Of a stretch of 35,579 nucleotides of DNA, positions 996 to 23,432 are shown piece by piece. The stretch spans positions 1 through 35,579 of the forward strand of contig DUCT01000053.1 in the NCBI GenBank assembly GCA_012959665.1, written 5' to 3'. The translations under genes were made by a program, and so were the position numbers. The notes under the pieces were generated by a model. The model saw only the letters and a list, made by a program, of their open reading frames with translations, ran no database searches and was not told the origin of the DNA. The stretch's first letter is position 1. The number at the start of each line of letters is the position of its first letter. The stretch comes from Myxococcales bacterium. Lineage in GTDB: Bacteria; Myxococcota_A; UBA9160; UBA4427.

Positions 996-1136
996 GGGTT
1001 TGCTTCTCCGGCCCCCTATTTACCACGCCTTTGGGGCTTGCGCGCCTCCCCGGGGCGGAATTCCCGGCTTCCGGGGAGGCCGATTGCTGATCCTATTGCT
1101 AAACCCCTTGGATTCAAGATGTGGAGGAGTTTCAGA

Positions 1137-2459
1137 ATGCGTAGGCACTTTTTTGGGCTTCGGGGCCCATTGGCGACCGTCCTCTGTGCTGCCCTGTTTT
1201 TTTCCGGGTGCGGTGGAGAAGAAGCTCCCGCCGCCAAGTCCGTCCCCGGGGCGAAGCCAGCCCCGAAAGCAGCCCCGAAAGCAGCCCGCTCCACGACTCC
1301 AGACAACCTCCCCGAGGCGCTGGTTTTGGGGCTCGCCCAGTTTCCGCCCAAGGGCGAGGGTCCGCCCAAGCCCCTCCCGGCCACGATGACCTTTTTGGTT
1401 CGTCAAAATGGCGAGTGGGTGGTCAGCCAGATCGACGACACGGACAGCGACGTCTTCCACAAGGTCCTTCATTACACCACGCCCCAGGGCGAGGAAGTTC
1501 TTCTGAGCGGCGGCGGCTCCAAGGCCATGTTGAAGCTCTGGCGGAAGACCGACGCAGGACACGTGGCCGAGACGATCTGGGAGAAGGATTTTGGCGGCCG
1601 ATTCAGCCGTATGCGCGATATCGAGGTCGGGGATCTCTACGGAGACGGGACTTCGGTTATCGCGGTGGCGACCCACGATCAGGGGGTCGTGGCCCTGATC
1701 AAGCCCGAAGGCGAAGGCTACGCGGTGGAGGAAATCGACCTCGAGCCGAACACCTTCGTGCACGAAGTCGAGATTGGCGATCTGGATGGGGATGGGGTGC
1801 TCGAGGTTTATGCCACGCCGAGTGAGCCCAACAAGCTCGATGGAAGCACCCAATCCGGGCGGGTGACCCGCTACGTGCCGGCGAAGGGCGAGGGCCGGGT
1901 GGTGGTGGCCGATCTGGGCGACCGGCACGCCAAAGAGATCCTCGTCGAGGATCTTGACGGGGATGGGAGCGATGAGCTCTACGTCATTGTCGAGGGCAAT
2001 TACGACAAGAAGACCAAAGCGCTGTCCCGGAAACTGGAGATTCGCCGCTACCAGGCGGGCACGGATCCTACCAAGGGGGTAGTGATCGGTGAATTCGACG
2101 ATTACCTGGGTCGCTTCCTGACCGCCGGGGATCTGGATGGCGATGGACAGATGGAATTGGTGGCGGCGCTCAAGAGCGCCGGGGTCTGGATGCTGACGCC
2201 CGGGGAAAATCCCGATTCACCCTGGAAAAAGAAGCTCATCGATCGCAAATCCGGTGGTTTCGAGCATGCCTCGATCATCGCCGACCTCGACCGGGACGGG
2301 CGTTCGGAACTCTACGTGGTCAGCGATAAGGACGGCGAGGTTCGGCGCTACACCTGGGAGGACGGCAAGTCGGTACGCGAGGTGATCCACAAGAGGACCG
2401 GGGGAAACACGGTTTTTACGTGGAATATCATGCCGATACCCGCTGAGCTGGCCCCTTAG
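1137..2459 (+). CDS. FG-GAP/VCBS repeat lipoprotein (beta-propeller)
   Basis: Predicted 440-residue exported lipoprotein of unknown partner. The N-terminus has Arg residues, a hydrophobic stretch and a lipobox-like FFSGC, followed by an Ala/Pro/Lys linker. The body carries five calcium-loop repeats of the FG-GAP/VCBS type: DLYGDG, then DLDGDG three times, then DLDRDG. Each is followed by a short hydrophobic beta strand such as VLEVYAT or SDELYVI. A degenerate repeat (DLGDRHAKEILV) suggests a six- or seven-bladed propeller. The ATG at 1137 is preferred over the in-frame ATG at 1119 because GGAGGAG (1123-1129) is correctly spaced from it. The open frame extends far upstream into hisS, but that part is antisense shadow. 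Family members are often surface binding or scaffold proteins; no specific function can be assigned. Confidence 0.85.
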   Translation: MRRHFFGLRGPLATVLCAALFFSGCGGEEAPAAKSVPGAKPAPKAAPKAARSTTPDNLPEALVLGLAQFPPKGEGPPKPLPATMTFLVRQNGEWVVSQIDDTDSDVFHKVLHYTTPQGEEVLLSGGGSKAMLKLWRKTDAGHVAETIWEKDFGGRFSRMRDIEVGDLYGDGTSVIAVATHDQGVVALIKPEGEGYAVEEIDLEPNTFVHEVEIGDLDGDGVLEVYATPSEPNKLDGSTQSGRVTRYVPAKGEGRVVVADLGDRHAKEILVEDLDGDGSDELYVIVEGNYDKKTKALSRKLEIRRYQAGTDPTKGVVIGEFDDYLGRFLTAGDLDGDGQMELVAALKSAGVWMLTPGENPDSPWKKKLIDRKSGGFEHASIIADLDRDGRSELYVVSDKDGEVRRYTWEDGKSVREVIHKRTGGNTVFTWNIMPIPAELAP

Positions 2460-2733: not shown

Positions 2734-5700
2734 ATGAAGAAGGCCGTTTCATCGCACTTCGTCCGCATCGGGCGCCTTCCCGGGATGCACCGGGCCATTG
2801 TTTTTCTGCTCGCCTTGACCGGATTAGCGGCTGGGCTTGCACCGACCCGGGCAGAGGCCTTCGAAGCCATCGACGGTCGCTTCGAAGCCCATGGTTATTA
2901 CGAAATGCAGTTGCGGACGATCAATCGCAACTTCGGTGGCCAGTGGGATCTCACCCAGTGGTACAACGTGTTCAACCTGGAACTTGAACTCGATCTTGTT
3001 CAGGACACCCACGGCATCCTCGACCTGCTGGAAGTCTATGTCCGCATCGAGGCCCGCTACGACTGCATCTATTCTCATGGCTGTGGGATGTTTCCGGGTG
3101 TCGATGTCTACGGCAATGACGCCGAGAACCTGCCCCCGCGCCTGCTCAGCAACAATGAGTACGCCTATGCCGGGTCGATTTTAATTGCCGACAACGGTCC
3201 CCGGGGCAGGAACAGTGAGGCGCTGGAATTTGCTGACGCAGTCACGTTGGACGAACGCGCCGAGAGGGGGCTCAGCGGTCCATTGCAAGACCCCTATACG
3301 ATCAAGACCGTTCCCGGCTTTGGGGGCATCTACCAGGGCGCGCCCGAGGGGCTCGGGGATGTCGACTATGCCGGGCTGATGCGTTGCGGCGTAGGGAGTG
3401 TGGTAGGCAGTGGGGGCAATGCCTACTGCCCCGACGATGGGCAAAAGTTCTTGCCGGGTCGGATCGCCGCGCGGTTCTGGGACGCGGACCGAAATCGTCG
3501 CAAGGAAGGGACCGGGGGAGCCCCCGGTGAGCAACCCGCCGTGGACGACGGGACCGAGGGCGCTCCGTACCTGATCGCCATGGAGCCCTTTCTGGACTTC
3601 AAGTTCTCTTCGATCCCTGTCATTGGTGGCTCGGGCAACGGGCACCCCATGCTCATCATGGGTCCCTGGTTGCCGGAGAATTTCGTCTCGACCAACGCCA
3701 CCCTGGCCGGGCTGCCGAATACCCTGGACCAGAGTCGAGTTTCCCCCCAGAGCCTGAGCGCGGGCCTCGGCGCCAATGCCATGCGCCCGATTCCGATCTT
3801 TCGCGAGGACAATCCAGGCCAGCGCCAGATCTACATCATTCAGCAGACCGAGCTTAACCTCCCTCCCGTCGTAGATAACGACGGAAACCTCGTCCCAGCG
3901 GACGTCGGTCCGGGTCGCTGGGAAACCATCAATCCGGTGAGCGGCCAATTCGGGGATGAGCGCGATTGGAACAACAGAGCGGCCCGGCCCGACGAGGCCC
4001 GTGGCCTGTTCGTCCCCAGCAAGCCCCTGCGCACGGCGCTGGCCAATGGCGGTTTCGGGGAATATCCGTTCAATATTTCCGAGATCGACCGCGCCTTCAA
4101 TCGCGGCGCGAGCCAGCAGGATGAGGGGGAACTCAAAGAGGCCTACATCGATGTCGAGATGTTTGACAGCCGGCTTTGGCTGCGGATCGGCAAGCAGAGC
4201 ATCGTGTGGGGAAAGACCGAACTCTTCCGAACCACGGATCAATTCAACCCCCAGGATTTTGCTCTGGCGACATTGCCGAGCTTGGAGGAATCGCGGATCG
4301 CCCTCTGGAGCATGCGCGGGGTCTGGTCCTTCTACGAGGTGGGCCCGTTCTCGGATGTGCGTCTGGAACTGGCGCTCAATTTCGATGATTTCGAATCGGC
4401 AGATCTTGGGGCCTGCGGAGAGCCCTACGCGGTCAATCTGATCTGCGCGTTGACCTTCGGGAGTTGGGCCCACGGTATCACGGGGCTTGGCGTTGCAGGA
4501 CTCGTGCAACCGCCGGATCCCTGGGACGACGCCGATGGAATGGAATTCGGGGCCCGGCTCGAGTGGCGCTGGGATCGCTTCAGCTTCGCGATTACCGATT
4601 TTTACGGCTACGACGACTTTCCCTACACGGTTCGGCTCAGCACCTACAATCGCAATGTGGATTGGCGGTCCGGACGGCCGCGAATATACCTCCAGACCCC
4701 GGACCAGCTGGCCGACATAGAGGCCTATGGCTGCGCCTCGCCGGTTGGGACAGGCGTCGTGCACCCCCTGGCGGATGGTCAGGCAAACTACGCCCTGGAT
4801 CCCACCGGCCCGGGCACGAGGATTTCGTACTCGGGGCCGGAGAACGCCGGTTGTCTGACGCGAGGAGCGACGAATCGCAACATACGAAATCTTTCGCCGC
4901 TGGATGTAGATGGAAATGTGCTGTTGGATGGCGATGGAAATCCCCCCGAATCGTGGAGCGTGCCCTACCGGGCGAGCCCGGACGCATCGAAGTTTGGCGC
5001 CCCGACGAGAGACAACGCGCTCAAGTATGTGGCAGGCGTTTGGCTGAACGACACCGCGTTGAGCGACCCGAGTCCCGACGAGCCTCGCCGGCGTTACTCC
5101 CAAGCGACGGTTGCGGATCCGACTCAACTGGCCCAACCCTTTCACGCCTGGGAAAAAGGTCCCCAGGCGGATGCCTGCGACCCGGGTTCAGCCTACAGGG
5201 CGCGTCTGGTGGCTGAGGGGTACTGCAACGACGCGACGCCCGGTTCCTTGGGGCGCCGGACTTTCGATCCGCAGAAATTTATTGATGTCGGAGTATCAGG
5301 AACTCCCGACCTGGTTCCCAATCCTCGCTACAACCCCAACTACGACCCGCGTTTCGATCGTCATTTCAAGGTGAGTGACTACGACGAAGCGAGCCTGGCC
5401 GCTGGCAATCCGAACGCCCAGTTCGCGCTTCAGGCCAACCCGGGCAACACGATTGCATCGACGCCGGTGCTCTTCGATCCATTCCAGGCTCTTACCGCGC
5501 CGTTGAAAAGCGACGGCCCGGGATTCGTCAATTTTGTCGAGGATTACGGCGCTGCTTGGTGGGGCAACGCCTATGACCCCGACCTTGCAGAATTCGACCC
5601 GCGCAACTCGCTGGACAGCAATCCGATCAACATGAGCCTGTTCAATTTCATCTGCGCTGTCACGGTAGGCTTCAGTTCGCTGGACCCGTCCTCGTGTGCC

Positions 5701-8700
5701 CTGACCGTATTCACTAGCACGAACCAACCCAGCGGCGGAGATCCCGGGGGCCCGCGAATCTCGGCCATAATCGGAAACTTTCTTAGCGGAAGCGCGTCAT
5801 TTAGCGGATTCCTGGGCACCGCGACTGACGCGGTCCTCAGCAAGGGCCCCCGTATCCCCAACGGAATGGCGATGCCCCTGGTGCAGCTCCATACAGACTT
5901 GGGGGCCAAGGATCTGGGAAAGGAAAGCAACACCACACTCTGCTCCTCGGTCTTCGGATGTGGACGAGACGCCTTTCGGACGACCGATTCCCGCCGGCAC
6001 TGGGCCGATCGGCTTGTGGGCAACCCTGCCCTAAACGATCCCGAGACCAGCATCTATCCCTGGATCTACTCCCGGGAATCCGAAAGCTACAACTGTCTTG
6101 GCGCGAACCCGGACCTGAACGCATTCGGCGGCCTTACCCTGTGCGGTGGCCTCGCGATCGGCGATCGCAATGTGGTACAGAACAACAGCGGTACGAGAGG
6201 TCAGTTCAACGTGGATTACGCCCTGGACCGGGGCCTCAGTCCCGAGCAGGAAGCGCTTTTGGGCTGCGGTCCCTATTTCAGGGGATCGTGCGGCGCAAAC
6301 GGCGCCGACTTGATGTGGGCTGAAGGCAGCGCGATTCTCCAGTCTTTCGTGGGGAGTGACTCGATCGGTATTTCGTTTTCGGATCTTGGAATCGGCGCTC
6401 TTGTTCAGTCAGATTTTGGCGATCGCCTGACGGATAACGGAAGCCTGGCCCTCGAATACCGAACCGACAGCCGGGTGACCGGGAGCAACGGTCGCCTGAT
6501 CCGGATCACTCCGGGGGAACTGGTCGAGGTCGCGACGGCTTTCGCCCCATGGTCGGACAACCCTGTCTCCCGAGTCCCTGCACTGGGCTCCAACGGCTAC
6601 CTCGTCGCTGGAAACCCCAATCTGTTTAGTCCCATGTCTCCGGGGCAAGGATCGAACCCCTGCGACCTGAGCGCCGATCGATTGCTGCAAACGAATGGGT
6701 TTTTCAACCCTACCCAGGCCCGCGCTTCTTCGCGTTGCTGGGACTTGCGTGACTACTACCGGGCCTATGGGATTCAGCCCGGAACTTTGGCTTTCGAAGT
6801 CCTTGAGCTGGGGGCGCCCCGGTGCACCACGGCCGATATCGGAGGCCCCCTGGGCGCGGCGGGCGTGCTGCCCGGCTGCCGAAGCAAGTGGAATTCGATT
6901 GCCTACCAGCCCCTGGATAGCTGGGACGGCGTGAGTGCACTCACCCCGAACAACCCCGATGCGGGTTATCTGGGCAACAACTGGTTTGGCCAAGTGCTGA
7001 GCTATAAGGCGGCGGCTTTTGATCCGAACAACGACAGCCTTCAGAATCCTCGGACCGACTATCGCCAGTGGAGTTCGAACCCGAGCGCTTACGATCCCGA
7101 CACCAACTCATTGGCCTCGCCCTTTCCCTTGGCCTCGGCCACTGATGAGGGGGGCGTTGGTTGCGGCACAGGCGACCCCGACAATGTGGCCAACTACGAT
7201 TGTTACGTTTTCAGCCCGGATGCCGAGGCCCCGGGGCTAGCGGCCCTGCCCAGCGGTGTCAGTGTCCGGCTGAATTCTGCGTGGGAACTCGCGGCCGACC
7301 CGCGTCGCGACGCCGCCCGCGCTTCGCTTCGCTCGGGGCTGAACTGGGGCGTTTTTGCGGCGGGGGGTGCGAGTAGTCCCTGCGACCCGTCCCTTTACAC
7401 CAGTGAGAGCCAGATGCGCAACGACCCGAATTGTTACTTGGGGGGTTGGCGCCAGGGCGTGGACGGCGATCCGGATCGGGTGGGCCTGAACGTCAATGTG
7501 AAGTTCCTCTATCCGGAATATGCCCAGGCTCTGGGAGCCGAAGCGAGCAACCCTTTCGCCCCGATCCTGCTCTACGGACAGAGGGTCGAAAACGGCTGCA
7601 CGCCGGGCAGTTCATGGATTTATATCCAACGAACCGACGACAACCAGTTGCTGCCCCCGGCCGAGTGCGCCGAGGTTTTTAGTAACCCGACGGAAACGTT
7701 GGCCGGGCTGCCCTGGGAGACTGACCTCAGCGGCGGTGCGGGCCATCCATTTACCGGGGAGAGCTTTGATAACGAAATGGCAGGCCTCTCTTTCAACCTG
7801 CTGATGATGTTGGTCACTTTTTCGCCGGAGTTCACCGATGGTCTGGCCAGCGTGCGCGGTTTCGTGAACCCTGAGATCTACGAGCACCGTTACATCTACG
7901 ATGAGGAGTGGATGTGGAACCCCGAGTGCGACGGCGTGCAGAAGACCGATGAAGAGTGCGGCGGACGCCGATTCGTGGCGGTCGCCTTCCCCCAGCAAGG
8001 ATTTCAACTTCCCTATTCCGCGTATGGGGCGACTGACAGGGACGTGGACACCCTGATCCCCAACGGCCGGGTGCGTATGGTTTCGGGGTGGCGTTCTCTG
8101 GGCATCACCAATATGCCCAGGGTGTCTGACCGGGCGGGTCATATCCCTAACCCATTGCTCCCCGGCGTCGAGAACAAGCTCCAGCGCGATCCGAGCTTGC
8201 CCAATATCTTGACCGTGTTTCCCGACTTGCTGATGCGCGAGTGCACGTCGGCCCGCCTGAATACGGATGACAAGTCCGCCGCGGAGCTCTACGCCAACTG
8301 CGGCACCGCAGCCAATGGGGGTAAGGACGATTGGACGATCAACCCGGCGACCAATAAGCCCTGGCAGGAGCTGCGACTGGGAACCTTCGGAGTTGCCGAC
8401 ACGCCCGACGGCGGATTGCTTGAGTCGCTCCAGTGGGACTACGCGTTCACCGGCAGCGAGAACGAATTCATGGCGATGATCCCCTACTGCGAGGATCTCG
8501 AATACACCCAGCGTCACATCTACAATATCCAGGGCGATGCCCTCGGCGGAGCCAATGATCGTGGAAAATACGGATTTAACCGCATGGATTGCTCCCGGGG
8601 TCTGAATGGAGAGACTCTCGGCTCCGAGCGCTGCACATTTATCACGCCGCAATACTGCTCCATCGTTCAGGCTCTCTCGGGGATCGCCGGGCAGAAGCGC

Positions 8701-9384
8701 AACATTGTCCGCGCGGGTGGGAACGAGAACTTTGGTCGGCGCACCATGCAGTGGCAGTCGGGCAGTGAGATCTATCTCGCCTACAACCGGCGCAACGTGC
8801 TCGGCTTCTCGATGGATTTCGCTGAAGATGTGACGAAATCGAATTGGAGCATGGAGTTTACCTGGATCGAGGGCATTCCGTTCACGGACTCGGACTCCTA
8901 CAACCTTGTGACCGAGGCCGACGATTTCAACCTGACGGTCTCGGTGGACAGGCCAACGTTCATCAACTTTTTGAACGCGAACAGGACCTTCTTCTTCAAC
9001 AGCCAGTGGTTCTTCCAGTACCGAAAGGGCTATCGCGACAGCTTTACCTCGATCGGCCCCTGGAATGTGCTGGCGACCTTTGCGGTCTTTACCGGGTATT
9101 TCCAGGACCGGCTGAATCCCACCTTGGTATTCGTCTGGGACTTCCGTTCGAGTTCGGGAGGAATCCTGCCCCAGATCAACTATCGCTTCTCGGATAAGTT
9201 CTCGATGACGGTGGGTGCTTCGGTCTTCATGGGTGATCGGGGACTGGCGAATATGGGGGTGAATACCATTGGCCCCGCATCGCCTCGTGCTGGCCCCAAT
9301 GCCTACATGGACGGCACGACTCCGGGTCTGTCGATTGTGCGCGATCGCGACGAAGTGTTCATGACCCTGCGCTACACGTTCTGA
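2734..9384 (+). CDS. Giant DUF1302-family outer-membrane protein
   Basis: Secreted 2,216-residue protein, predicted to sit in the outer membrane. It has a signal peptide (basic start, hydrophobic core around residues 18-32, cleavage near TRAEA). DUF1302-like sequence follows, with the core block AYIDVEMFDSRLWLRIGKQ near residue 469 and WGKTELFRTTDQFNPQDF just after it. The C-terminal 200 residues (from about 2010) are alternating barrel strands ending in RYTF, typical of a beta-barrel C-terminus. Between about residues 640 and 2000 lies a very long Asn/Asp/Pro/Gly-rich insertion with many Cys residues (for example CGPYFRGSC). Ordinary DUF1302 proteins are roughly 500-700 residues. The ATG at 2734 is chosen because it directly precedes the signal peptide; a GTG at 2680 is a longer alternative. 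The DUF1329 partner converges from the other side. Function unknown; transport or surface binding of a hydrophobic compound is inference. Confidence 0.82.
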   Translation: MKKAVSSHFVRIGRLPGMHRAIVFLLALTGLAAGLAPTRAEAFEAIDGRFEAHGYYEMQLRTINRNFGGQWDLTQWYNVFNLELELDLVQDTHGILDLLEVYVRIEARYDCIYSHGCGMFPGVDVYGNDAENLPPRLLSNNEYAYAGSILIADNGPRGRNSEALEFADAVTLDERAERGLSGPLQDPYTIKTVPGFGGIYQGAPEGLGDVDYAGLMRCGVGSVVGSGGNAYCPDDGQKFLPGRIAARFWDADRNRRKEGTGGAPGEQPAVDDGTEGAPYLIAMEPFLDFKFSSIPVIGGSGNGHPMLIMGPWLPENFVSTNATLAGLPNTLDQSRVSPQSLSAGLGANAMRPIPIFREDNPGQRQIYIIQQTELNLPPVVDNDGNLVPADVGPGRWETINPVSGQFGDERDWNNRAARPDEARGLFVPSKPLRTALANGGFGEYPFNISEIDRAFNRGASQQDEGELKEAYIDVEMFDSRLWLRIGKQSIVWGKTELFRTTDQFNPQDFALATLPSLEESRIALWSMRGVWSFYEVGPFSDVRLELALNFDDFESADLGACGEPYAVNLICALTFGSWAHGITGLGVAGLVQPPDPWDDADGMEFGARLEWRWDRFSFAITDFYGYDDFPYTVRLSTYNRNVDWRSGRPRIYLQTPDQLADIEAYGCASPVGTGVVHPLADGQANYALDPTGPGTRISYSGPENAGCLTRGATNRNIRNLSPLDVDGNVLLDGDGNPPESWSVPYRASPDASKFGAPTRDNALKYVAGVWLNDTALSDPSPDEPRRRYSQATVADPTQLAQPFHAWEKGPQADACDPGSAYRARLVAEGYCNDATPGSLGRRTFDPQKFIDVGVSGTPDLVPNPRYNPNYDPRFDRHFKVSDYDEASLAAGNPNAQFALQANPGNTIASTPVLFDPFQALTAPLKSDGPGFVNFVEDYGAAWWGNAYDPDLAEFDPRNSLDSNPINMSLFNFICAVTVGFSSLDPSSCALTVFTSTNQPSGGDPGGPRISAIIGNFLSGSASFSGFLGTATDAVLSKGPRIPNGMAMPLVQLHTDLGAKDLGKESNTTLCSSVFGCGRDAFRTTDSRRHWADRLVGNPALNDPETSIYPWIYSRESESYNCLGANPDLNAFGGLTLCGGLAIGDRNVVQNNSGTRGQFNVDYALDRGLSPEQEALLGCGPYFRGSCGANGADLMWAEGSAILQSFVGSDSIGISFSDLGIGALVQSDFGDRLTDNGSLALEYRTDSRVTGSNGRLIRITPGELVEVATAFAPWSDNPVSRVPALGSNGYLVAGNPNLFSPMSPGQGSNPCDLSADRLLQTNGFFNPTQARASSRCWDLRDYYRAYGIQPGTLAFEVLELGAPRCTTADIGGPLGAAGVLPGCRSKWNSIAYQPLDSWDGVSALTPNNPDAGYLGNNWFGQVLSYKAAAFDPNNDSLQNPRTDYRQWSSNPSAYDPDTNSLASPFPLASATDEGGVGCGTGDPDNVANYDCYVFSPDAEAPGLAALPSGVSVRLNSAWELAADPRRDAARASLRSGLNWGVFAAGGASSPCDPSLYTSESQMRNDPNCYLGGWRQGVDGDPDRVGLNVNVKFLYPEYAQALGAEASNPFAPILLYGQRVENGCTPGSSWIYIQRTDDNQLLPPAECAEVFSNPTETLAGLPWETDLSGGAGHPFTGESFDNEMAGLSFNLLMMLVTFSPEFTDGLASVRGFVNPEIYEHRYIYDEEWMWNPECDGVQKTDEECGGRRFVAVAFPQQGFQLPYSAYGATDRDVDTLIPNGRVRMVSGWRSLGITNMPRVSDRAGHIPNPLLPGVENKLQRDPSLPNILTVFPDLLMRECTSARLNTDDKSAAELYANCGTAANGGKDDWTINPATNKPWQELRLGTFGVADTPDGGLLESLQWDYAFTGSENEFMAMIPYCEDLEYTQRHIYNIQGDALGGANDRGKYGFNRMDCSRGLNGETLGSERCTFITPQYCSIVQALSGIAGQKRNIVRAGGNENFGRRTMQWQSGSEIYLAYNRRNVLGFSMDFAEDVTKSNWSMEFTWIEGIPFTDSDSYNLVTEADDFNLTVSVDRPTFINFLNANRTFFFNSQWFFQYRKGYRDSFTSIGPWNVLATFAVFTGYFQDRLNPTLVFVWDFRSSSGGILPQINYRFSDKFSMTVGASVFMGDRGLANMGVNTIGPASPRAGPNAYMDGTTPGLSIVRDRDEVFMTLRYTF

Positions 9385-9432: not shown

Positions 9433-10893
9433 TCAGTGGCCGCGATCCAAGGCGCTGGTGGTGGTCATCCGCTTCACCGCCGAAGGCGTAAACGGCAGTG
9501 ACTCCAGGCTATGGGATTCACGGAGCCAGCCGCCTCGGCCTGCCAGGGCGTTGACGAAGCTGGCGGCAACGGGTTCGAAAACCCGGTTGGGTGAATCGTC
9601 GGGCCAGCGCTGTTCCTCGGGGCGGTCCCCGCTGAAGCGGTGCACCAGAATCCCCACTTCGACTAGACGCTTTTTCCCCGTGTGGCTGATCCAGTAGAGG
9701 GGTTGAAGGGTCTGGTAGTCGATGTAGATCGTGATGGTACGGATCGTCTCGGATCGCTGGAGGCTGATTCCTTCGATCACCACTGCTTGGCGGACATCCC
9801 AGCGGTCGGCGGCCACGGAGAGACCGCTGGTTCCATAGTTGCGCCCCTGGGTGACGGGCCAGCCCTGTCGCTGGCCATTGAGCGGAGCGATGACGGTCTG
9901 CTCACCGCGGATACGCCAACGGTAGGCGTTGGGTCTGAGGTAGAGGCCCGTAAGCCCGGCACGCGCGTTTTCGCTGACGGCCAGGGACGGGCCCGCACCG
10001 GGCTGGATCGAAACGCCCCCGCTCAGGGCCATCCCGCCACCGCCCTGGCTCTGGTCGGCCACGCTGTAGCGCGGCATGAATGCGCCATCCACCCAGGGCG
10101 TTCCCGAGCGCCGGGTTTTGCGAAGGCTGGGTATATAGACGAACACGTCGTCGGGTTTACCCCAGCGCGTTTCGCTCCCGGGAGACCGGAATTGTCGCCA
10201 TGCGAGTTCCCGCGCGCCAAAGGGCGCGGTGAACTGCCCGCCTGTAGCCCACAGGAGATTCTTGGTGTCTGGGGAGCGGTAGTCGGTCTCGGCCAGGTCG
10301 GCACGTCCGGCGGCCTGGAAGGCGAAGAACTTGCCTTCGTAGCGCATCACGGCACCCATGCGAGTGGGGAAGTCGGTGATTCGAAAGCGTCCGCGATAGC
10401 CCGCGCCTCGAAAACGTTTTTCGAGATTCCAGGCCCAGCGGGTGGCGGCCATGGGATCGTCGGGGTCGATGGATGCCTGGGGGAAGGGAACTCCCGCCAC
10501 GTAGTTCGAAAGGTTCCCTTCGTCATCGAGGACAACGCCGGCCGCGTGTTTGTCGGTGGCCTCGAGGAAAAAGCGCGGCAGGGGATAGCGGCGGTGGCAC
10601 GGGCCGATCTCCATCAGCATGCCTTCAAAGAAGAAACTTTCGCGGTGCCGCCAAACCTCTCGGGGGAGCAGGGTTTGGAGCGCGAGAAGGCCTTCGGCGC
10701 TGACCTTCATTCCTTCCTTGACGATCATCGGCGTGGCGTCGGTGTCGGGTCGGCCATCGGGACCGCGCGGCGATATGGATGGACATTCGCCTTCGTCGGG
10801 AGGTGCCGCGAAGGAGGGGAGGGCGAGCAGCAGGCTGGTCAAACCAACGGCGAGAATTCCCAGTGGGACCCCCGATGCCGCGAGGCCTCGCAA
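9433..10893 (-). CDS. DUF1329 family protein (LolA-like fold, periplasmic)
   Basis: Exported 486-residue protein of the DUF1329 family, which is linked to outer-membrane lipoprotein sorting folds and usually travels with DUF1302 proteins. The signal peptide is VPLGILAVGLTSLLLALPSFAA. Recognisable stretches are MIVKEGMKVSAEGLLALQTLLP near the start, DDVFVYIPSLRKTRR in the middle and a late TITIYIDYQTLQPLYWISHT. The start is a TTG at 10893, immediately after the Trm112-like stop (TAG at 10897-10895). No Shine-Dalgarno is visible, so translation probably depends on coupling. No other start would leave an intact signal peptide. It is the last gene of the run starting with the thiolase and converges on the giant DUF1302 gene, with only 48 bases between the stops. 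Confidence 0.85.
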   Translation of the reverse strand: MRGLAASGVPLGILAVGLTSLLLALPSFAAPPDEGECPSISPRGPDGRPDTDATPMIVKEGMKVSAEGLLALQTLLPREVWRHRESFFFEGMLMEIGPCHRRYPLPRFFLEATDKHAAGVVLDDEGNLSNYVAGVPFPQASIDPDDPMAATRWAWNLEKRFRGAGYRGRFRITDFPTRMGAVMRYEGKFFAFQAAGRADLAETDYRSPDTKNLLWATGGQFTAPFGARELAWRQFRSPGSETRWGKPDDVFVYIPSLRKTRRSGTPWVDGAFMPRYSVADQSQGGGGMALSGGVSIQPGAGPSLAVSENARAGLTGLYLRPNAYRWRIRGEQTVIAPLNGQRQGWPVTQGRNYGTSGLSVAADRWDVRQAVVIEGISLQRSETIRTITIYIDYQTLQPLYWISHTGKKRLVEVGILVHRFSGDRPEEQRWPDDSPNRVFEPVAASFVNALAGRGGWLRESHSLESLPFTPSAVKRMTTTSALDRGH

Positions 10894-11165: not shown

Positions 11166-12395
11166 CTAGCGCAGCATGGCCGACGGATAGTCGAGAATTC
11201 GGCGGGCCACGATGAGTTGATTGATTTGCTGGGTGCCTTCAAAGATGTCGTTGATCTTGGCGTCACGAAACCATTTCTCTACCAATATCTTGCGCGAGTA
11301 GCCCACGGGACCCAGGAGTTCGACGGTTTTCTGGCAGATTCGCGTGACCGCAAGCCCCGCCTTGGCCTTGGCGATGGACGCTTCGAGATTGTTGGGCTTC
11401 CCCTTGTTCATCATCCATGCAGCCTTCCAGGTCAGGAGACGCGCGGCCTGGAGATCCGCTTCCATCTCGATGACGTCGCGCTCGATGGCGGTGAGTTCCC
11501 GGGGTGGGGCGTCGTAGCGAATGGCGACGCCCTGGCGCTCGAGTTCCTCCTTGAGGAAATCCAGGGAGGCTCGCCCGACTCCGACCGCCATGGCGGCGAC
11601 GATGGGCCGGCTGGCATCGAAGGTGGCCATGGCTCCCTTGAAGCCCTTGTCTCCGGTTTTCTTTGAGGATTTCTTCTGGACGTCGGGGTTGCCCAGTAGA
11701 TGATCCTTCGGAACTCGGCAGTTCTCAAAGCGGAGGGAGGCGGTATCCGACGCGCGAATGCCCATTTTCTTTTCGCATCCGATGAGTTCCATGCCCGGAG
11801 TGTTGGCGGGGACGACGAATGACTTGATGCCCCCTCGGCCCGCGCTCTTGTCCACTGTGGCCCAGACAACGGTAATGCCGCCTTCCACGGTGGCGGACTG
11901 TTGCCCTGCGGTGCAGAAGATTTTGTGGCCGTTCAGGATCCATTCTTCTGTTTCCGGGTCAAAGTCTGCGGTGGTTTCGATTGCCGAGGCATCCGAACCG
12001 GCCGACGGTTCGGTGATCGCCATGGCGCCCCAAATGGGGTGGCCGTCCTCCTGGAAGCGGGAGAGGAAGAGTTCTCGCTGCTCGGGTGTACCCGCAGCGC
12101 CCACCGCCGAGCCGCCCAGGGCGGGAGTGGGCATTCTCAGGTAGAGGCCGCAATCTCCCCAGCAGATCTCCTCGGCCTGCACGCAGACGGTGACGAAACC
12201 ATCCGTGGGTTGGGAGATATCGACCGGGGCACCTTGGCGGCCGACCTTCCACCAGTAGTCAATCCACTCGACGGGGAGTGTGTGTTCCTCTTCGTCGTAC
12301 TTGCGCGAGATGGGGCGCATCTCTTTCCTTGCCATGGCGTTGTAGTGGGTGACTGAGATTTGGCTGTTCTCGGTCAGATCAAACGAAATGGCCAT
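11166..12395 (-). CDS. Acyl-CoA dehydrogenase
   Basis: FAD enzyme introducing the alpha-beta double bond in acyl-CoA substrates and passing electrons to ETF. The 409-residue protein has the usual order: a helical N-terminal domain, the FAD/substrate loop AMAITEPSAGSDASAIETTA, the middle beta domain, and the C-terminal helical domain ending in INDIFEGTQQINQLIVARRIL. The Glu in FEGT (about residue 386) aligns with the catalytic base of medium-chain acyl-CoA dehydrogenases. The ATG at 12395 has GAGGAG at a suitable distance. It follows a second, shorter acyl-CoA dehydrogenase gene after 56 bases. Actinobacterial steroid degraders often use two adjacent dehydrogenases as heterotetramers, which is possible here but not shown. 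Chain length and substrate cannot be read from the sequence. Confidence 0.92.
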   Translation of the reverse strand: MAISFDLTENSQISVTHYNAMARKEMRPISRKYDEEEHTLPVEWIDYWWKVGRQGAPVDISQPTDGFVTVCVQAEEICWGDCGLYLRMPTPALGGSAVGAAGTPEQRELFLSRFQEDGHPIWGAMAITEPSAGSDASAIETTADFDPETEEWILNGHKIFCTAGQQSATVEGGITVVWATVDKSAGRGGIKSFVVPANTPGMELIGCEKKMGIRASDTASLRFENCRVPKDHLLGNPDVQKKSSKKTGDKGFKGAMATFDASRPIVAAMAVGVGRASLDFLKEELERQGVAIRYDAPPRELTAIERDVIEMEADLQAARLLTWKAAWMMNKGKPNNLEASIAKAKAGLAVTRICQKTVELLGPVGYSRKILVEKWFRDAKINDIFEGTQQINQLIVARRILDYPSAMLR

Positions 12396-12451
12396 TTTAT
12401 CAACTCCTCGGGTTCGGCCGCGGGGCCTTACCGGCTCTTTACCAATCGACT

Positions 12452-13543
12452 CTAAACCAGGGTGAGTGCTTCGAAACTGCTGATGAATCCCCCGGCGTTG
12501 CGGAGGTACATCTCGGGCAGGTACTCGCGAATGAAGCCATGCCCACCGAAGATCTGGACAGCGTCATCGGAGACCTTCAGGGCAACGCGTCGGGCTTGGC
12601 TGTAGGCCAGTGAGGCGAGCCGCGCCGAAGGCTTTCCGGTGTCCAAGGCACACGCCGCCTCCCAGGTGAGCATACGCGCTCCATCGATCTCGATGGCCAT
12701 GTCGGCGATCTTGAAAGCGATGGCCTGGCGAGTCGCGATGGGAGAGCCAAAAGTTTTGCGTTCCTTCGCGTAGTCCCGGGACACCTCCAGAGCTGCGCGG
12801 CTCATGCCCACCGCGCATGCGGCCAGTCCGACGCGCCCCCGGTCGATGAGTTCACTCACCCCCGGTGGATTGTCGCCACCGAGGCGTGCACTGGCGGGTA
12901 CTTGAACGCCCGAAAATCTGACCTCGGCCATGGGCAGGCCGTGGGTGCCCAAGTTCTTCTCCAACTCAGCGGTCAGGCCGTCGGCGTCACGAGGGACGAG
13001 AAAGCCCTGGGTAGAGCCCTCGCTTTCGGCAAATACGAGCACTTCATTTCCGCCCTCGAGCCAGGGGACCTGGCATTTGATGCCTTCGATACGGAACCCA
13101 TTGCCCTCGGATTTTGCGGTGGTCTGGGGTCTGTGAACGTCGGAATCGAAGCGGGGTTCCACCGCGGCGAGAGCCCCGGGGACGAACTGGGGGCCGGTGA
13201 GGGTAGGCAGGATACGTTCGCGTTGTTCCTCGGTTCCGAAGCGCGCGACGGGCGTGGCCAGTAGGGATGGGGACAGAATGCCAAGAGCGGAGGAGAGATC
13301 TCCCCAGGCCAACTCCTCGGCGATCAAGCAGCCGAGCATTGCGCCGGGTTCTCCGCCCCCCCCGTATTCTTCGGGGATTCCGTTGGCGACGAGGCCAAGT
13401 TCGTGTGCACCGTTCAAGGCCGGCTGGGAGAGCGAGCCGCGCTCGTCCGACTCCCGGGCAATGGGCCTTATTTCGTTCTCAGCGAACTGGTGCACGGTTT
13501 CGACAATGAGGGCCTGTTCTTCAGTCGGCTCGAAATCGATCAT
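12452..13543 (-). CDS. Acyl-CoA dehydrogenase, short type
   Basis: The 363-residue acyl-CoA dehydrogenase-family protein starts MIDFEPTEEQALIVETVHQF, the usual helical N-terminus. Its FAD-binding region contains YAKERKTFGSPIATRQAIAF and the C-terminal signature QIFGGHGFIREYLPEMYLRNA. The canonical catalytic YEGT segment is changed to SSFEALTLV at the very end, so the Glu (about residue 358) may or may not act as base. The N-terminal TEPxxGSD loop of typical members is also modified (AAVEPRFDSDVHRP). The ATG at 13543 is one base after the thiolase stop (TAA at 13547-13545), so the two are translationally coupled. A longer upstream frame exists but lies inside the thiolase gene. It may be a non-catalytic partner of the next dehydrogenase. 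Confidence 0.88.
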   Translation of the reverse strand: MIDFEPTEEQALIVETVHQFAENEIRPIARESDERGSLSQPALNGAHELGLVANGIPEEYGGGGEPGAMLGCLIAEELAWGDLSSALGILSPSLLATPVARFGTEEQRERILPTLTGPQFVPGALAAVEPRFDSDVHRPQTTAKSEGNGFRIEGIKCQVPWLEGGNEVLVFAESEGSTQGFLVPRDADGLTAELEKNLGTHGLPMAEVRFSGVQVPASARLGGDNPPGVSELIDRGRVGLAACAVGMSRAALEVSRDYAKERKTFGSPIATRQAIAFKIADMAIEIDGARMLTWEAACALDTGKPSARLASLAYSQARRVALKVSDDAVQIFGGHGFIREYLPEMYLRNAGGFISSFEALTLV

Positions 13544-13544
13544 G

Positions 13545-14780
13545 TTAGATACGCTCCAAAATGGTGGCAGTTCCCATGCCGCCACCAATGCACATGGTGA
13601 CCAGTCCCGTCGTCTTGCCGCGTCGTTCAAGTTCGTCGAGGACCGTCCCGATTAGCATGGCGCCCGTGGCGCCCAGGGGATGGCCCAGAGCGATGGCGCC
13701 GCCGTTGACGTTGACTGTGTCGTGGTCCATGCCGATGTCCCGCATGGTCTTGAGGGGCACGGTGGCAAAGGCTTCGTTGATCTCGATCAGGTCGATGTCG
13801 CCGATCTCCATTCCCGCCTTGGCGAGGCACCGGGCGGTCGCCGGCGTCGGTGCGGTGAGCATAATGATGGGCTCGGCGGCTGCGGTGGCAGTCTGCAGAA
13901 TTCTGGCGCGGGGCTTGAGGCCGTGTGCCTTGGCGTATTCCGGGGAGGCGATCAGGATGGCGCTGGCTCCGTCCACGATGCCCGAAGAATTGGCCGCTGT
14001 GTGAAGGTGGTTGATCGAGTCAACTTCCGAGTAACGGGAGAGCGCCTTGGCGTCCATGGAAAGCGAGGCGCCCTTGTTTACGTAGCTCCCCATGGCCTCG
14101 AACGAGGACGGAAGTTTGCCCAGGCTCTCGACGGTTCCGCCGGGCCGGGGGTGCTCATCCACAGCCAGGGTTTGCTGGCCGTCGTTGTCCTTGATGGGAA
14201 CGAGGCTGGAGTCGAAGCGTCCTTCCTTCTGGGCGACGGCACAGCGCCGCTGGCTTTCCGCCGCGTAGGCGTCGAGTTCTTCGCGACTAAAGCCTTCGAG
14301 GGTGGCGATCAGGTCTGCCGAGATGCCTTGGGGCACCATGGGGTGAAGCGCATTGAGGTGGCCGTTGTGGCCGTACATGCCCGACTTGTCCGCGCCCATG
14401 GGAACCCGGGACATGGATTCCACGCCGCCCCCGACGACCAGGTCCTGCTGGCCCGCCATGACCCCCATGGCGGCAAAGTTGACGGCCTGCTGCCCCGAGC
14501 CACAGAAACGGTTGAGGGTGACCCCGGTGGCACCCGCTTCGGGCCAGCCCGCGTCCAGCACCGACATACGCGCAATGCAGGCGCCTTGTTCGCCCACGCT
14601 TGACACGCAACCCGCGACGACGTCCTCGACGTCGCCCGGGTCGAAGCTCGTTCGCGACTCAAGGGCGTTGAGGCACTGGGCGAGCAGGCGTTGGGGGTGG
14701 ATTCCGGAGAGGCTACCTGTGTCCTTTTTCCCCCTTCCTCGGGGGGTCCGAACGGCGTCGATGATCCAGGCTTCTGCCAT
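13545..14780 (-). CDS. Acetyl-CoA C-acyltransferase (thiolase)
   Basis: Catalyses thiolytic cleavage of 3-ketoacyl-CoA, the last step of beta-oxidation, or the reverse condensation. The 411-residue protein has all three thiolase signatures. The nucleophile is Cys93 in [26 protein letters not shown] carries the active-site His (about 367). CIGGGMGTA near the end carries the second Cys (about 397). [11 protein letters not shown] is also typical. The ATG at 14780 starts [15 protein letters not shown], the standard N-terminus, with GGAAG upstream; the longer open frame to 15038 reads through a minisatellite and is not coding. This is the first gene of the minus-strand run that includes both dehydrogenases. 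Confidence 0.94.
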
Positions 14781-14795
14781 TGAGGTCTTCCTTTT

Positions 14796-14950
14796 GGTTC
14801 GCGTGGTGGTTCGCGTGGTGGTTGGCAAGAGTGGTTGGCAAGAGTGCTTGGCAAGGGTGGTTGGCAAGAGTGCTCGGCAAGAGTGCTTGGCAAGAGTGCT
14901 CGGCGAAGGGTGCGAGGCAAAGAGTGCTTGGCAAAGGGGGTTGGTAAGGG
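14796..14950. repeat. 13-bp minisatellite with 12-bp prefix, upstream of the thiolase
   Basis: Two perfect copies of a 12-base unit (GGTTCGCGTGGT, 14796-14819) are followed by tandem copies of a 13-base unit, consensus TTGGCAAGAGTGS. Full copies start at 14822, 14835, 14848, 14861, 14874 and 14887; 14-base variants start at 14900 and 14914, and a decayed copy at 14928. The array begins only 16 bases from the thiolase start codon, in its leader. Thirteen is not a multiple of three and there are no spacers, so it is neither coding nor CRISPR. Confidence 0.9.
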
Positions 14951-15254
14951 GGGGCGTGTTGGTTGGGCCGAGGGGGCATCGGAATTCGACCGAATGCTTG
15001 GTCGTGGGGGCTGGGTGTTCTCCTTGCGAGCCCGGCAAGGGCCCCTTCTCGACTCTGGGTCGGGCCGCATTCTACCAAGATGGTCCCGGCGCCGCATTTC
15101 CTGTCTGGCCGGACGCCCGGAACAGCGCGGATTCCTCGGCGTTCCTGGAACCGCAGGGGTTCGGGGAGGGGAGTCGGGAACCGTGGGGAGTCATGCAACC
15201 ATTGGATGCGTTGGAGGTGGGCTACACGCGTCCCAAAATGCGCCCTGCGTATGC

Positions 15255-15520: not shown

Positions 15521-16414
15521 ATGAGCCCGATTCGAAAAAGTACCCTCCGTGTACGGCCGCCTTCCGGTCTTTTCTCCCCTGTATTCGCGCGGTTGAATGC
15601 GCTGGCATTCGCCCGGACCGCCCCATTGGGTTGGCTTCTGAGGGTTGCCGGGGTGATGGCGCTCGGCTTGGGGCTCGGCATGGCGCTCGGAATAGCGCTC
15701 CCTTTGATGGCGGCCCCGGCATGGGCATCCGATGACGGGCATTCCGACGGCGGGCACGCCGAAGAACCCCATGCGCCGACACCCACGGGTGATGTGTTTG
15801 TGGCGGGCAGTGTGTGCGAGGCCCACGAGCTGCGCGCGCTGGCGGCGGAAAAGCCCTCTATGACAATCGAGATTCCCCCGGAGTTCGCCGGTCAGTGGCC
15901 CTCCCGGAGCGCTTGCGAGAGCGCGCGTCTGGCGTGGGACCCCGAGGCACCGGGACCGATCCAGCCGATTCCCTTCAGCCACAAACACCACGCCGGCGAG
16001 TTCGGGATTGACTGCCAGTACTGCCACTCGGGGACCGATCGATCCCCGGCGGCGGGCGTTCCCTCTGTGGAGTTGTGCATGGGCTGCCATGCCCAGTTTC
16101 CTGCGTCGTATGACGAAATTGAGGGAATTCGGATTCTGAAGGAGCACTGGGAAGAGCGGAAGCCCATCGAGTGGATTCAAATCCACCGCCTGCCCGAGCA
16201 TGTTCAGTTTCGCCACAATCGGCATATCCAGGCGGGAGTGGAGTGTCAGACGTGTCATGGCCCGGTGGAGAAACTCGACAAACTCTATCTCGTGCCCGAC
16301 GAACACTGGAAATATGGCGTGCCGGTCCAGAAAATGGAAATGGGCTGGTGCCTCAATTGCCACCGGGACAACGACAACCAAGCGTCCATCGATTGTACGC
16401 GGTGCCACTATTGA
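15521..16414 (+). CDS. actA: Alternative complex III pentaheme cytochrome c subunit ActA
   Basis: Periplasmic multiheme cytochrome c of ACIII, which takes electrons from the iron-sulfur subunit ActB and hands them on. Five CxxCH heme motifs are visible: CQYCH (165), CMGCH (186), CQTCH (242), CLNCH (277) and CTRCH (292), the count expected for ActA. Additional His residues suited to distal ligation (HKHH, HRLPEHVQFRHNRH) are present. A hydrophobic segment (MALGLGLGMALGIALPLMAAPAWA) near residues 46-69 is the signal or anchor. The ATG at 15521 gives 297 residues and a long basic leader; internal starts (a TTG near 15593 or the ATG before MALGLG) are also possible because the Shine-Dalgarno is poor. 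First gene of the operon. Confidence 0.9.
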   Translation: MSPIRKSTLRVRPPSGLFSPVFARLNALAFARTAPLGWLLRVAGVMALGLGLGMALGIALPLMAAPAWASDDGHSDGGHAEEPHAPTPTGDVFVAGSVCEAHELRALAAEKPSMTIEIPPEFAGQWPSRSACESARLAWDPEAPGPIQPIPFSHKHHAGEFGIDCQYCHSGTDRSPAAGVPSVELCMGCHAQFPASYDEIEGIRILKEHWEERKPIEWIQIHRLPEHVQFRHNRHIQAGVECQTCHGPVEKLDKLYLVPDEHWKYGVPVQKMEMGWCLNCHRDNDNQASIDCTRCHY

Positions 16415-16602
16415 ATTGAAGTTTCTGAGGGTCCAACGCCCCTTATTGTTTCTTTAACGACGCGAGTTGCTTGCTGAGAGTCTTCAGGGCATAGGCATTC
16501 GCGAATCCACAGCGGTTCAACGATTCACAGTCTGCTTCGATGAGATCTTAAACGGGTCCGACTGCCGAACGGAAGACAAGAAATGGAAACCAGGCAATAG
16601 AA
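16415..16602 (+). other. Untranslated spacer between actA and actB
   Basis: A 188-base gap in an operon whose other junctions overlap. It has no gene. A 10-base palindrome ATTCGCGAAT lies at 16497-16506. It could hold a processing site or internal promoter, but no good promoter was read. Confidence 0.4.
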
Positions 16603-19600: not shown

Positions 19601-19632
19601 TGACGCGCGATGAGAATGAGGGCAATCACTGA
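16603..19632 (+). CDS. actB: Alternative complex III iron-sulfur subunit ActB (molybdopterin-oxidoreductase-like plus FeS domain)
   Basis: Large periplasmic subunit (1,009 residues) relaying electrons from quinol to the cytochromes. It begins with a Tat-type signal (DRRDFLKLVGVGAG) and a conserved Cys at 24 that could be lipidated. The N-terminal region resembles molybdopterin oxidoreductases and carries Cys53, 56, 60 and 88 in the arrangement of an N-terminal 4Fe-4S cluster. The C-terminal ferredoxin-like domain has four Cys groups: CNGCSACVAAC (767), CQQCGAAPCEAVC (838), CAGTRYCANNC (870) and CSFCVQRI with CQQACP (920 onward). Solved ACIII structures have Fe-S clusters but no molybdenum in this subunit. 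A His/Gly-rich linker (about 724-745) joins the domains. Its stop overlaps the actC start (TGATG). Confidence 0.95.
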   Translation: MSELDRRDFLKLVGVGAGAAATACAEPVEKLVPYVEQPESITPGIAVWYASTCTECPAACGLHVRTREGRPVKLEGNPDHPINQGKLCGRGQTSLGRTYLPDRYPQPMVRGAGGSLEPSTWDDAMAQLAAKLASARGRTWILGGTVGPSLGGVIDQFAVAAGANRIVYEPFAHEALRKGTEAVFGVASLPIFDPSQADLIIDLGSDFLSTGLSPTENARQYADARNVNTDKTGGTRMISFGPRLNFTTTSADQWIPAKAGSEAAIAFALAKAVVAAKGTPEGVDAAGVQRFLSGANMAQAATAAGLEPGELSAVAEALLHAKNPVILPPGVAYTGSQATSTVAAVMLANALLGAVGKSLVVPPATGTNDAASLADLKVLVAAMKAGRVDVLLIHDSNPVYSLPPELGFTEALGKVGTVVSFASLQDETAESAGLVLPDHTPMESWGDSAPRPGIRSIVQPTVRPLLDTRALGDSLLELGRGLGGAMAEGSFHNVVENNWSDVNWRQALAQGGIFSEVVIEPVGISGDFAGLGYSASSASGKGEFALVAFPHHFLSDGRGAALPWLQEIPDPVTKLQWNSWVEMSFESAKRLDVGFGDVVEVETPSGKIEASVFPRGGIRDDTIAVPIGQGHSVGLYASMEGEGEHGGWIHGPIGAEGQPGVARGANVIALLPATQDEMGGRVWGGAQASVTKTGRFRRLALSQWTDNQRGRELAQSTSLAELAGHGSDHGSGHGAHHDEPPHTFTAAYDADPDQPYRWGMVIDNDRCNGCSACVAACYVENNIPVVGETQAIQHRDMAWIRIERYVGDGDLEGGAARRPVPNREKLGELDVRYIPMPCQQCGAAPCEAVCPTLATYHNKEGLNGMVYNRCAGTRYCANNCVYKVRRFNYFDYGNENFPGLLGLMLNPDVTVRQQGVMEKCSFCVQRIEGARQPAKDEGREIRDGEVKTACQQACPTHAITFGNLRDDASKVVEAGNHPERSYHLLQELNTRPAITYLAQVTRDENEGNH

Positions 19633-20996: not shown

Positions 20997-21499
20997 TGCC
21001 TACTCTAGTCAGCGTATTCGATCTTCCCAGCAATACCGCGTCGGCGGTCCGCAAACTCAAGGATCGCGGATTCGACGATCTGAAGACCTATTCCCCCGCG
21101 CCCTTTATCGAACTGGAGCTGGCTGAAGATCCGAAGCCCAGTAAGGTCAGGCGGTTCACATTGATAGGCGGGCTGTCCGGCGTGACATTGGGCTTCCTGA
21201 TGCAGATCTGGATGTCCCTGGAGTGGCCGATCAAAATAGCTGGCAAGAACTTCGCATCGATTCCACCTTTTTGGATCGTGGGCTTCGAGTTGACGATTCT
21301 ACTGGGCGGTTTCTTTACGTTCTTTGGCCTTCTCATCGTGGGCGGTCTCTACCCGAAGAGGCTGGACAAGCACTACGACTTGCGATTTTCCGCCGAGGAG
21401 TTCGGTGTTGTGGTGACGTGCGACGAACGCGACGTGGCCGAAGTGGAAGCGCTGCTTCGAGCCGAGTCGGCCAAGGAGGTGACCCTTGCCGATTCGTAA
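20996..21499 (+). CDS. actD: Alternative complex III subunit ActD (DUF3341)
   Basis: Membrane subunit of 167 residues. It starts with a soluble domain (LVSVFDLPSNTASAVRKLKDRGF, the typical DUF3341 opening), then two hydrophobic segments (FTLIGGLSGVTLGFLMQIWM and FWIVGFELTILLGGFFTFFGLL) and a soluble C-terminal part ending in EVEALLRAESAKEVTLADS. The ATG at 20996 shares its A with the actC stop TGA, and GGAGG (20982-20986) lies nine bases upstream. The open frame extends upstream inside actC but that extension is shadow. DUF3341 proteins are ACIII structural subunits without cofactors. Confidence 0.93.
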   Translation: MPTLVSVFDLPSNTASAVRKLKDRGFDDLKTYSPAPFIELELAEDPKPSKVRRFTLIGGLSGVTLGFLMQIWMSLEWPIKIAGKNFASIPPFWIVGFELTILLGGFFTFFGLLIVGGLYPKRLDKHYDLRFSAEEFGVVVTCDERDVAEVEALLRAESAKEVTLADS

Positions 21500-23386: not shown

Positions 23387-23432
23387 AGGGGCAAGGAATG
23401 CGCTCTTCGGGTAACTCCGGGGACCTTCTTTG

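Follow-up and report, generated by a model that had tools for sequence, protein, structure and literature searches.

A giant DUF1302 protein from Myxococcota with two enlarged, cysteine-paired loops: a candidate for surface capture and uptake of hydrophobic compounds

The DUF1302 gene found in the 35,579-nucleotide stretch of Myxococcales DNA analysed here (hereafter, the window) encodes a protein of 2,216 aa, predicted to be an outer-membrane β-barrel in which two loops, L2 and L5, have probably grown into a surface cap for the capture and uptake of hydrophobic compounds. DUF1302 (PF06980) proteins, such as PP_0765 from P. putida and AmeA from Castellaniella (605 aa), typically comprise about 500-700 aa and share with the giant protein the profile match, the outer-membrane barrel and a DUF1329 neighbor. 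L5 corresponds to the region between the profile positions ~319 and 389, to which the Pfam model assigns about 70 positions, compared to about 1,385 aa in the giant protein; in outer-membrane barrels a loop usually comprises some tens of residues. More tentatively, with a chance that we put somewhat short of even, we propose that a subfamily of Myxococcota proteins enlarges two surface loops jointly by disulfide-stapled units, and that one of its clades has arrived at a cap well in excess of 1,500 residues, the barrel itself being unchanged; this would place the cap among the largest surface structures formed by the loops of a single barrel.

The giant gene and its barrel

The ATG at position 2734 opens an unbroken frame that extends to position 9384 of the forward strand, and the start codon together with the N-terminal MK(K/R)AVS is kept in two homologs. 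The profile analysis identified residues 461-637 as a match to DUF1302 (55.5 bits, cut-off 23.2), while the C-terminal strands match the following part of the profile below the cut-off, in the correct order and at the very end of the protein (Table 1). The Pfam match and the intact frame bear out the suggestion of an earlier note, made from the sequence alone, of a DUF1302 barrel interrupted by a very long region. The reading of the frame as an artefact (a fusion of two genes, which that note itself had considered, a frameshift or a mis-assembly) is hardly credible: full-length orthologs of similar size are present in two further genomes of the genus (72% identity) and in four further genera of the family (53-58% identity). 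Since these independent assemblies share the architecture and the length class, and coding selection extends over the full length, a chance or assembly fusion is excluded. Nucleotide composition gave no signal of foreign origin (GC content of 0.613 in the insert vs 0.571-0.618 in the rest of the gene), and a promoter and terminator scan was uninformative.

Table 1. Features of the giant DUF1302 gene and its neighbors (positions in the window; residues of the giant protein in brackets)
Feature	Positions	Strand	Basis or remark
FG-GAP/VCBS-repeat lipoprotein, 446 residues, lipobox Cys at residue 31	1119..2459	+	Pfam FG-GAP_3; conserved upstream neighbor
Predicted signal peptide (1-42)	2734..2859	+	hydrophobic stretch, then TRAEA-FEAIDG; predicted cut after AEA
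Long loop L2 (111-466), 356 aa; Cys pairs 111/117, 218/232	3064..4131	+	180-530 aa in family
Block A, conserved barrel signature (419-653), incl. GKQSIVWGKTELFRTTDQFNPQD	3988..4692	+	best Pfam DUF1302 match; about 60-89% identity across order
Giant loop L5 (627-2011), 1,385 aa; 30 Cys in 15 sequence-adjacent pairs	4612..8766	+	contains the insertion proposed in the earlier note
Expansion (712-957)	4867..5604	+	mostly missing from short members; 181-247 aa in giants
L5 core segment (958-1057), Cys pair 974/988	5605..5904	+	in short members; pLDDT > 70 in part
Expansion (1087-1156), Cys pair 1121/1137	5992..6201	+	short-member and giant alignments
L5 core segment (1157-1210), LSPEQEALLGCGPYFRGSC..GADL, Cys pair 1178/1186	6202..6363	+	short-member alignment; Cys pair in 62/63 members
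Expansion (1211-1341), Cys pair 1310/1335	6364..6756	+	short-member and giant alignments
L5 core segment (1342-1385), Cys pair 1364/1382	6757..6888	+	short-member alignment; Cys pairing analysis
Expansion (1386-1571), Cys pairs 1477/1490, 1550/1567	6889..7446	+	
Expansion (1581-1667), Cys pair 1622/1645	7474..7734	+	short-member and giant alignments
L5 core segment (1668-1702)	7735..7839	+	short-member alignment; pLDDT 74-88 in part
Expansion (1703-1817), Cys pair 1732/1742	7840..8184	+	short-member and giant alignments
Expansion (1825-1962), Cys pairs 1837/1856, 1919/1953	8206..8619	+	short-member and giant alignments
C-terminal barrel strands (2012-2216), RYTF end	8767..9381	+	DUF1302 profile 389-541, 20.4 bits; strands in homologous AF2 model
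DUF1329 protein with signal peptide, convergent with giant gene	9433..10893	-	PF07044, 65.3 bits vs 23.1; conserved neighbor
Acyl-CoA dehydrogenase, FEGT motif (catalytic Glu)	11166..12395	-	
Acyl-CoA dehydrogenase paralog without catalytic-Glu motif	12452..13630	-	
Thiolase; listed ORF has N-terminal extension beyond thiolase match	13545..15038	-	Pfam Thiolase_N, Thiolase_C

The AF2 model of a short homolog, L102, is a barrel (pLDDT 87.7, pTM 0.88), and on the basis of this homolog model the giant protein is classified as an outer-membrane β-barrel of the DUF1302 family. The closest folds in the PDB are porins, FadL, AlgE and TonB-dependent receptors; a comparison of the barrel profile with the PDB gave no sequence match. 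FadL/TodX-type channels resemble the giant protein as outer-membrane barrels suited to greasy substrates; however, FadL lacks large loops and the TM-score is low (0.09-0.12 on query length). In the L102 model the insertion point follows the ninth transmembrane strand, and the turns on the other side are short; therefore, given a periplasmic N-terminus, the long loop starts outside the cell, and by strand parity both L2 and L5 are predicted to be extracellular. Of the two locations considered in the earlier note for the insert, outside the cell or in the periplasm, this model favors the former. The barrel is probably 18-stranded, a provisional total, since the strands were counted from DSSP of the homolog model without coordinates and the strand 827-844 is bulged.

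Growth of the loops L2 and L5

L5 is common to all 63 members of the Myxococcota DUF1302 subfamily (303-1506 aa), while the barrel block 467-626 retains a length of 160-162 aa; the lengths of L2 and L5 rise together (rho 0.88). Members of this subfamily, with sizes of 1,000-1,900 aa, have the barrel, the L5 core and the paired Cys in common with the giant protein. The earlier idea of a single ~1,350-residue insertion is thus not borne out: the loop is subfamily-wide, and the 1,000-1,150-aa members align to it in about eight core segments (703-711, 958-1057, 1077-1086, 1157-1210, 1342-1385, 1572-1580, 1668-1702 and 1818-1824). About 270 residues of L5 constitute this conserved core, and the other ~1,000 fall between its segments as seven or more expansions of the giant clade. 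Short homologs therefore align inside the supposed insert, as core blocks, but not across the whole length, which goes halfway towards what the earlier note had named as a refutation. The insertion point was placed by means of the Pfam positions, since hhalign comparison of the subfamily with the genome's own short DUF1302 protein aligned the signature block alone (72 columns, probability 36%). Among 379 Myxococcota genomes, the stretch 6889-7734 was detected in 10, which belong to a single family.

Searches with the insert alone returned no match in Pfam and a meaningless one among PDB sequences (E 0.4), and no internal repeats were found in the giant protein at E-values up to 1. The structure prediction advocated in the earlier note, carried out with AF2 for residues 640-1839 (40 sequences), gave no confident fold (pLDDT 45.8, pTM 0.48), with only the shared core segments exceeding a pLDDT of 70. 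The Asn/Asp/Gly/Pro-rich, Cys-containing character ascribed to the insert is present, if mild (Gly 10.5%, Pro 8.0%, Asp 7.8%, Asn 6.6%, Cys 2.1%). According to the topology of the homolog model, L2 and L5 (about 1,740 of the 2,216 residues) would form a surface cap over the pore, perhaps a compact one.

The strongest feature of the protein, overlooked in the earlier note, is the pairing of its Cys residues. All 36 are arranged in 18 sequence-adjacent pairs, compared to no Cys at all in the 532-aa DUF1302 protein that is also encoded in this genome. In the subfamily 62 of 63 proteins have an even number of Cys, the spacing is 10 within pairs vs 81 between pairs, and discordant gain or loss was counted 30 times within pairs vs 531 times between pairs (63 proteins). 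The number of Cys scales with loop length (r2 0.92), at a density in L5 of about one pair per 90 residues; the Cys positions are kept in all or nearly all giants, among which 30 columns are strictly conserved. Since the Cys residues are paired, with even totals, coupled gain and loss and scaling with length, the loops probably grow in segments stapled by disulfides, the bonds themselves being predicted from the sequence pattern. This suggests a simple and directly testable rule of growth.

The giant clade is monophyletic (support 100/99), with L5, as measured from blocks, of 1,160-1,430 aa, vs about 230-790 aa in the short and intermediate forms. Size nevertheless forms a continuum, and the intermediate sizes do not group into one clade. 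The expansions are under purifying selection, with dN/dS values (calculated against the window protein) of 0.16-0.20, vs 0.045-0.08 in the barrel. A separate idea, that larger size offsets a smaller number of paralogs, was unsupported (rho -0.23; p 0.14 by genome, p 0.62 by family) in a comparison that took in truncated frames and three entries with hand-adjusted or estimated values.

Genomic neighborhood and proposed function

Analysis of the genomic neighborhood revealed a conserved locus that comprises an FG-GAP lipoprotein, DUF1302, DUF1329, two acyl-CoA dehydrogenases (ACADs), a thiolase and Alternative Complex III, and the FG-GAP/DUF1329/ACAD neighborhood recurs in many subfamily members. 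No RND (COG1033) transporter is encoded beside the giant gene, the 25 MMPL matches of this genome being located on other contigs; no COG4447 (YCF48-type) propeller was seen among the neighbors scanned, where the FG-GAP-repeat lipoprotein is found instead. In P. putida the DUF1302/DUF1329 pair is required for growth on Tween20 and has been modelled as a transport complex (PMC10866462), and AmeA and AmeB from Castellaniella are part of monoterpene metabolism (PMC6394551). The gene content suggests that the locus serves to capture and take up hydrophobic compounds that can be degraded via acyl-CoA, although proximity is no proof of joint function; this would point to such a system in uncultured Myxococcota.

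Most likely, the loops were lengthened by added segments, mostly each with its own local disulfide between neighboring Cys, and the resulting cap would serve to capture a substrate that is bulky and hydrophobic (our guess would be a lipid, a sterol-like molecule or a hydrocarbon), perhaps in concert with the FG-GAP propeller lipoprotein. After passage through the barrel, the substrate would be taken over by the LolA-like DUF1329 carrier in the periplasm, be handed on to an inner-membrane transporter encoded elsewhere, and finally be degraded as acyl-CoA by the dehydrogenase pair and the thiolase of this locus; transport would thus be directed inward. The combination of a barrel with an extensive cap and a lipoprotein partner, both at the cell surface, is reminiscent of SusC/SusD from Bacteroidota. 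This analogy concerns only the way of working: in the giant protein, barrel and cap belong to one polypeptide, unlike in SusC/SusD, and the Pfam scan gave no match to SusD or TonB-dependent-receptor families.

The location of the bulk of the protein mass in the loops, and their faster evolution compared to the barrel, could also be expected of a surface adhesin or a protective layer that binds cells, particles or matrix, or shields against phages or predators, with transport being secondary or lost. A DUF1302 protein is reportedly named in a study of laminin-binding proteins from P. aeruginosa. We regard this reading as unlikely, as the barrel signature is near-invariant, which is expected of a working pore, the lipid-degradation and DUF1329 neighbors are kept whatever the size of the loops, and profile and PDB sequence searches revealed no known adhesion domains. 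Export is possible by analogy with DUF1302 clusters elsewhere, which have been described in terms of efflux or solvent stress: the related ame cluster, which carries both DUF1302 and DUF1329, has been characterised as a monoterpene efflux system (PMC6394551), and for several betaproteobacterial clusters a role in dealing with toxic aromatics has been proposed (PMC6449761). An outward movement of hydrophobic compounds or envelope lipids, with the loops as a surface release device, is however quite improbable for this locus, which lacks an RND gene and adjoins catabolic genes (the ACAD pair and the thiolase), and the dependence of P. putida on the pair for growth on Tween20 fits uptake (PMC10866462).

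The continuum of sizes without a single clade of intermediates, the different lengths of expansions even among the giants and the lack of a confidently predicted fold would agree with near-neutral drift of loops where surface loops are cheap, the extra residues having no role beyond local folding. We assign a low probability to such slack growth, since the low dN/dS of the expansions and the conserved Cys positions (30 strict columns) imply selection to keep a structure. Within one family, and often at the same locus, the size of a single loop varies between about 300 and about 1,500 residues on a barrel of almost invariant length, which provides a natural series for studying the growth, folding and continued function of surface loops.

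A giant member of the DUF1302 family and its expanded loop

The open frame at 2734-9384 (+) of the window encodes a protein of 2,216 residues with an N-terminal signal peptide, of which residues 461-637 match DUF1302 in Pfam (55.5 bits, cut-off 23.2). In a six-frame genome search the DUF1302 profile also matched window 8767-9381 through its C-terminal half, with a score of 20.4 bits, which is below the cut-off. The possibility that the frame is an assembly fusion of two genes can be ruled out, since two other genomes of the genus contain orthologs of nearly equal length (72% identity) and four other genera of its family carry further orthologs (53-58% identity); partial copies occur in two more genomes of the genus. 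The ortholog records are named as Myxococcota or "Deltaproteobacteria" assemblies from metagenomes, and isolate names of a marine type (e.g. TMED88, MED660) are frequent among them.

The earlier note proposed a single long insertion within the barrel. Comparison of 63 complete relatives, taken from public genome contigs, indicates that it is an expanded loop. Measured from block to block, the stretch between two conserved barrel blocks ranges continuously from 225 to 1,422 aa; the short members align within it in about eight segments (703-711, 958-1057, 1077-1086, 1157-1210, 1342-1385, 1572-1580, 1668-1702 and 1818-1824 in giant-protein numbering), and the expansions are the other ~1,000 residues between them. 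One expansion piece (window 6889-7734) turned up in 10 of the 379 Myxococcota genomes sampled, every one of them from one of five genera in a single family. The barrel segment 467-626 measures 160-162 aa in all 63 proteins; the loops L2 (residues 111-466; 180-530 aa) and L5 (residues 627-2011; 303-1506 aa, 1,385 in the giant protein) increase in length in step (rho 0.88). A tree built from the barrel blocks groups the giants in a single clade (support 100/99) with a 1,826-aa protein as the nearest relative (90/90), and does not unite the intermediate-size members in one. Searches for internal repeats in the giant protein and for a compositional break in its gene found none.

The AlphaFold2 model of L102, a short homolog of 1,030 residues, built with 63 sequences (mean pLDDT 87.7, pTM 0.88), matched outer-membrane barrels in the PDB, namely porins, FadL, AlgE and TonB-dependent receptors. 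Its long loops (72-304, 327-361, 388-441 and 465-826) are separated by turns of 2-4 residues (315-318, 375-376, 452-453), and the two big ones are the counterparts of L2 and L5 in the giant protein. According to the predicted secondary structure the insertion comes after strand 9, hence with the N-terminus counted as periplasmic it would begin outside the cell, the first of the two locations suggested earlier. The model of giant-protein residues 640-1839 with 40 sequences was poor overall (pLDDT 45.8, pTM 0.48), with values above 70 in core segments only.

Paired cysteines and selection

The giant protein contains 36 Cys residues; among the giants, 30 alignment columns hold Cys in every protein that has a residue at that position. 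With the signal region left out, Cys totals range from 10 to 44, and 62 of the 63 proteins have an even one; the exception, L104:8153-13717, has 33, and its unpaired Cys falls within the C-terminal barrel region. Within L5 all 63 counts are even, rising by 2.18 Cys for every 100 aa (r2 0.92). Median spacing is 10 within pairs vs 81 between pairs, and gain or loss of one partner only, scored for the 18 pairs of the giant protein, affects 30 sequence-by-pair cells vs 531 with the pairing shifted by one. Because the proteins are related by descent, the binomial p-value for these counts is not to be read as a true probability, but so many different even counts are hard to explain without pairing, and the simplest reading is that of predicted local disulfides between neighbours, formed in an oxidising compartment and gained as the loops grew.

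Compared with its same-genus orthologs, at high dS, the giant protein shows dN/dS of 0.16-0.20 for the expansions, 0.08-0.10 for the L5 core and 0.045-0.08 for the conserved barrel blocks A and C; for the closer pair of relatives (L078/L079) the values are 0.16, 0.07 and 0.01-0.04. By these ratios the expansions are kept by selection, yet are faster-evolving than the barrel.

Genomic neighborhood and putative function

Genes in the neighborhood of the giant gene
Feature	Position	Strand	Remarks
FG-GAP repeat protein			446 residues, lipobox; upstream of giant gene
DUF1329			signal peptide; downstream, convergent with giant gene
Two adjacent acyl-CoA dehydrogenases	11166-13630	-	beyond DUF1329
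Thiolase		-	beyond dehydrogenase pair
Alternative Complex III genes	15521-23386	+	beyond dehydrogenases and thiolase
Multihaem cytochrome (Alternative Complex III)	15521-16414	+	
ActB	16603-19632	+	E 5e-138 to 6f0k_B
NrfD/ActC-like protein	19632-20996	+	
ActF	22019-23386	+	E 2e-18 to 6f0k_F
Rhomboid-family protease	23430-24872	+	after Alternative Complex III genes; best NCBIfam GlpG, rhombosortase, all below cut-off

One of the two dehydrogenases exhibits the catalytic-Glu motif FEGT; the other, which has a short C-terminus, lacks such a motif. This resembles the division known in the heteromeric acyl-CoA dehydrogenases that act in steroid side-chain degradation. The Alternative Complex III genes also match Qrc and Dsr names in NCBIfam, under the respective cut-offs. 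Loci with this gene order recur throughout the taxonomic order, where the DUF1302 version may be short, intermediate or giant, and several loci contain tandem DUF1302 copies.

In other bacteria, DUF1302/DUF1329 pairs are linked with hydrophobic compounds: in P. putida, PP_0765/PP_0766 is required for growth on Tween20 and was modelled as a transport complex (PMC10866462), AmeA/AmeB of Castellaniella takes part in monoterpene metabolism together with an RND efflux transporter (PMC6394551), and clusters in betaproteobacteria share their regulation with aromatic degradation (PMC6449761). By analogy with these pairs, and given the catabolic neighbours, the best reading is that the system probably captures and takes up a lipid-like substrate, an assignment we make with some reserve against the rival explanations of adhesion, export and drift. 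Unlike the four-gene cluster (DUF1302/DUF1329/RND/COG4447-propeller), the giant-gene locus has no RND partner, and therefore we did not class the system within it. The DUF1302 family is already known; the series of giant Cys-paired loops appears undescribed in the literature searched, where no paper mentioning DUF1302 couples DUF1329 with Myxococcota.

Other families of the order carry two to four short DUF1302 paralogs in tandem at the same locus type (L092:8885-19251, L114, L115). The genome of the giant gene encodes one other DUF1302 protein (L055:3124-4722, -), an ordinary member of 532 aa with no Cys, adjoined by its own DUF1329-like protein (L055:4729-5571, -).
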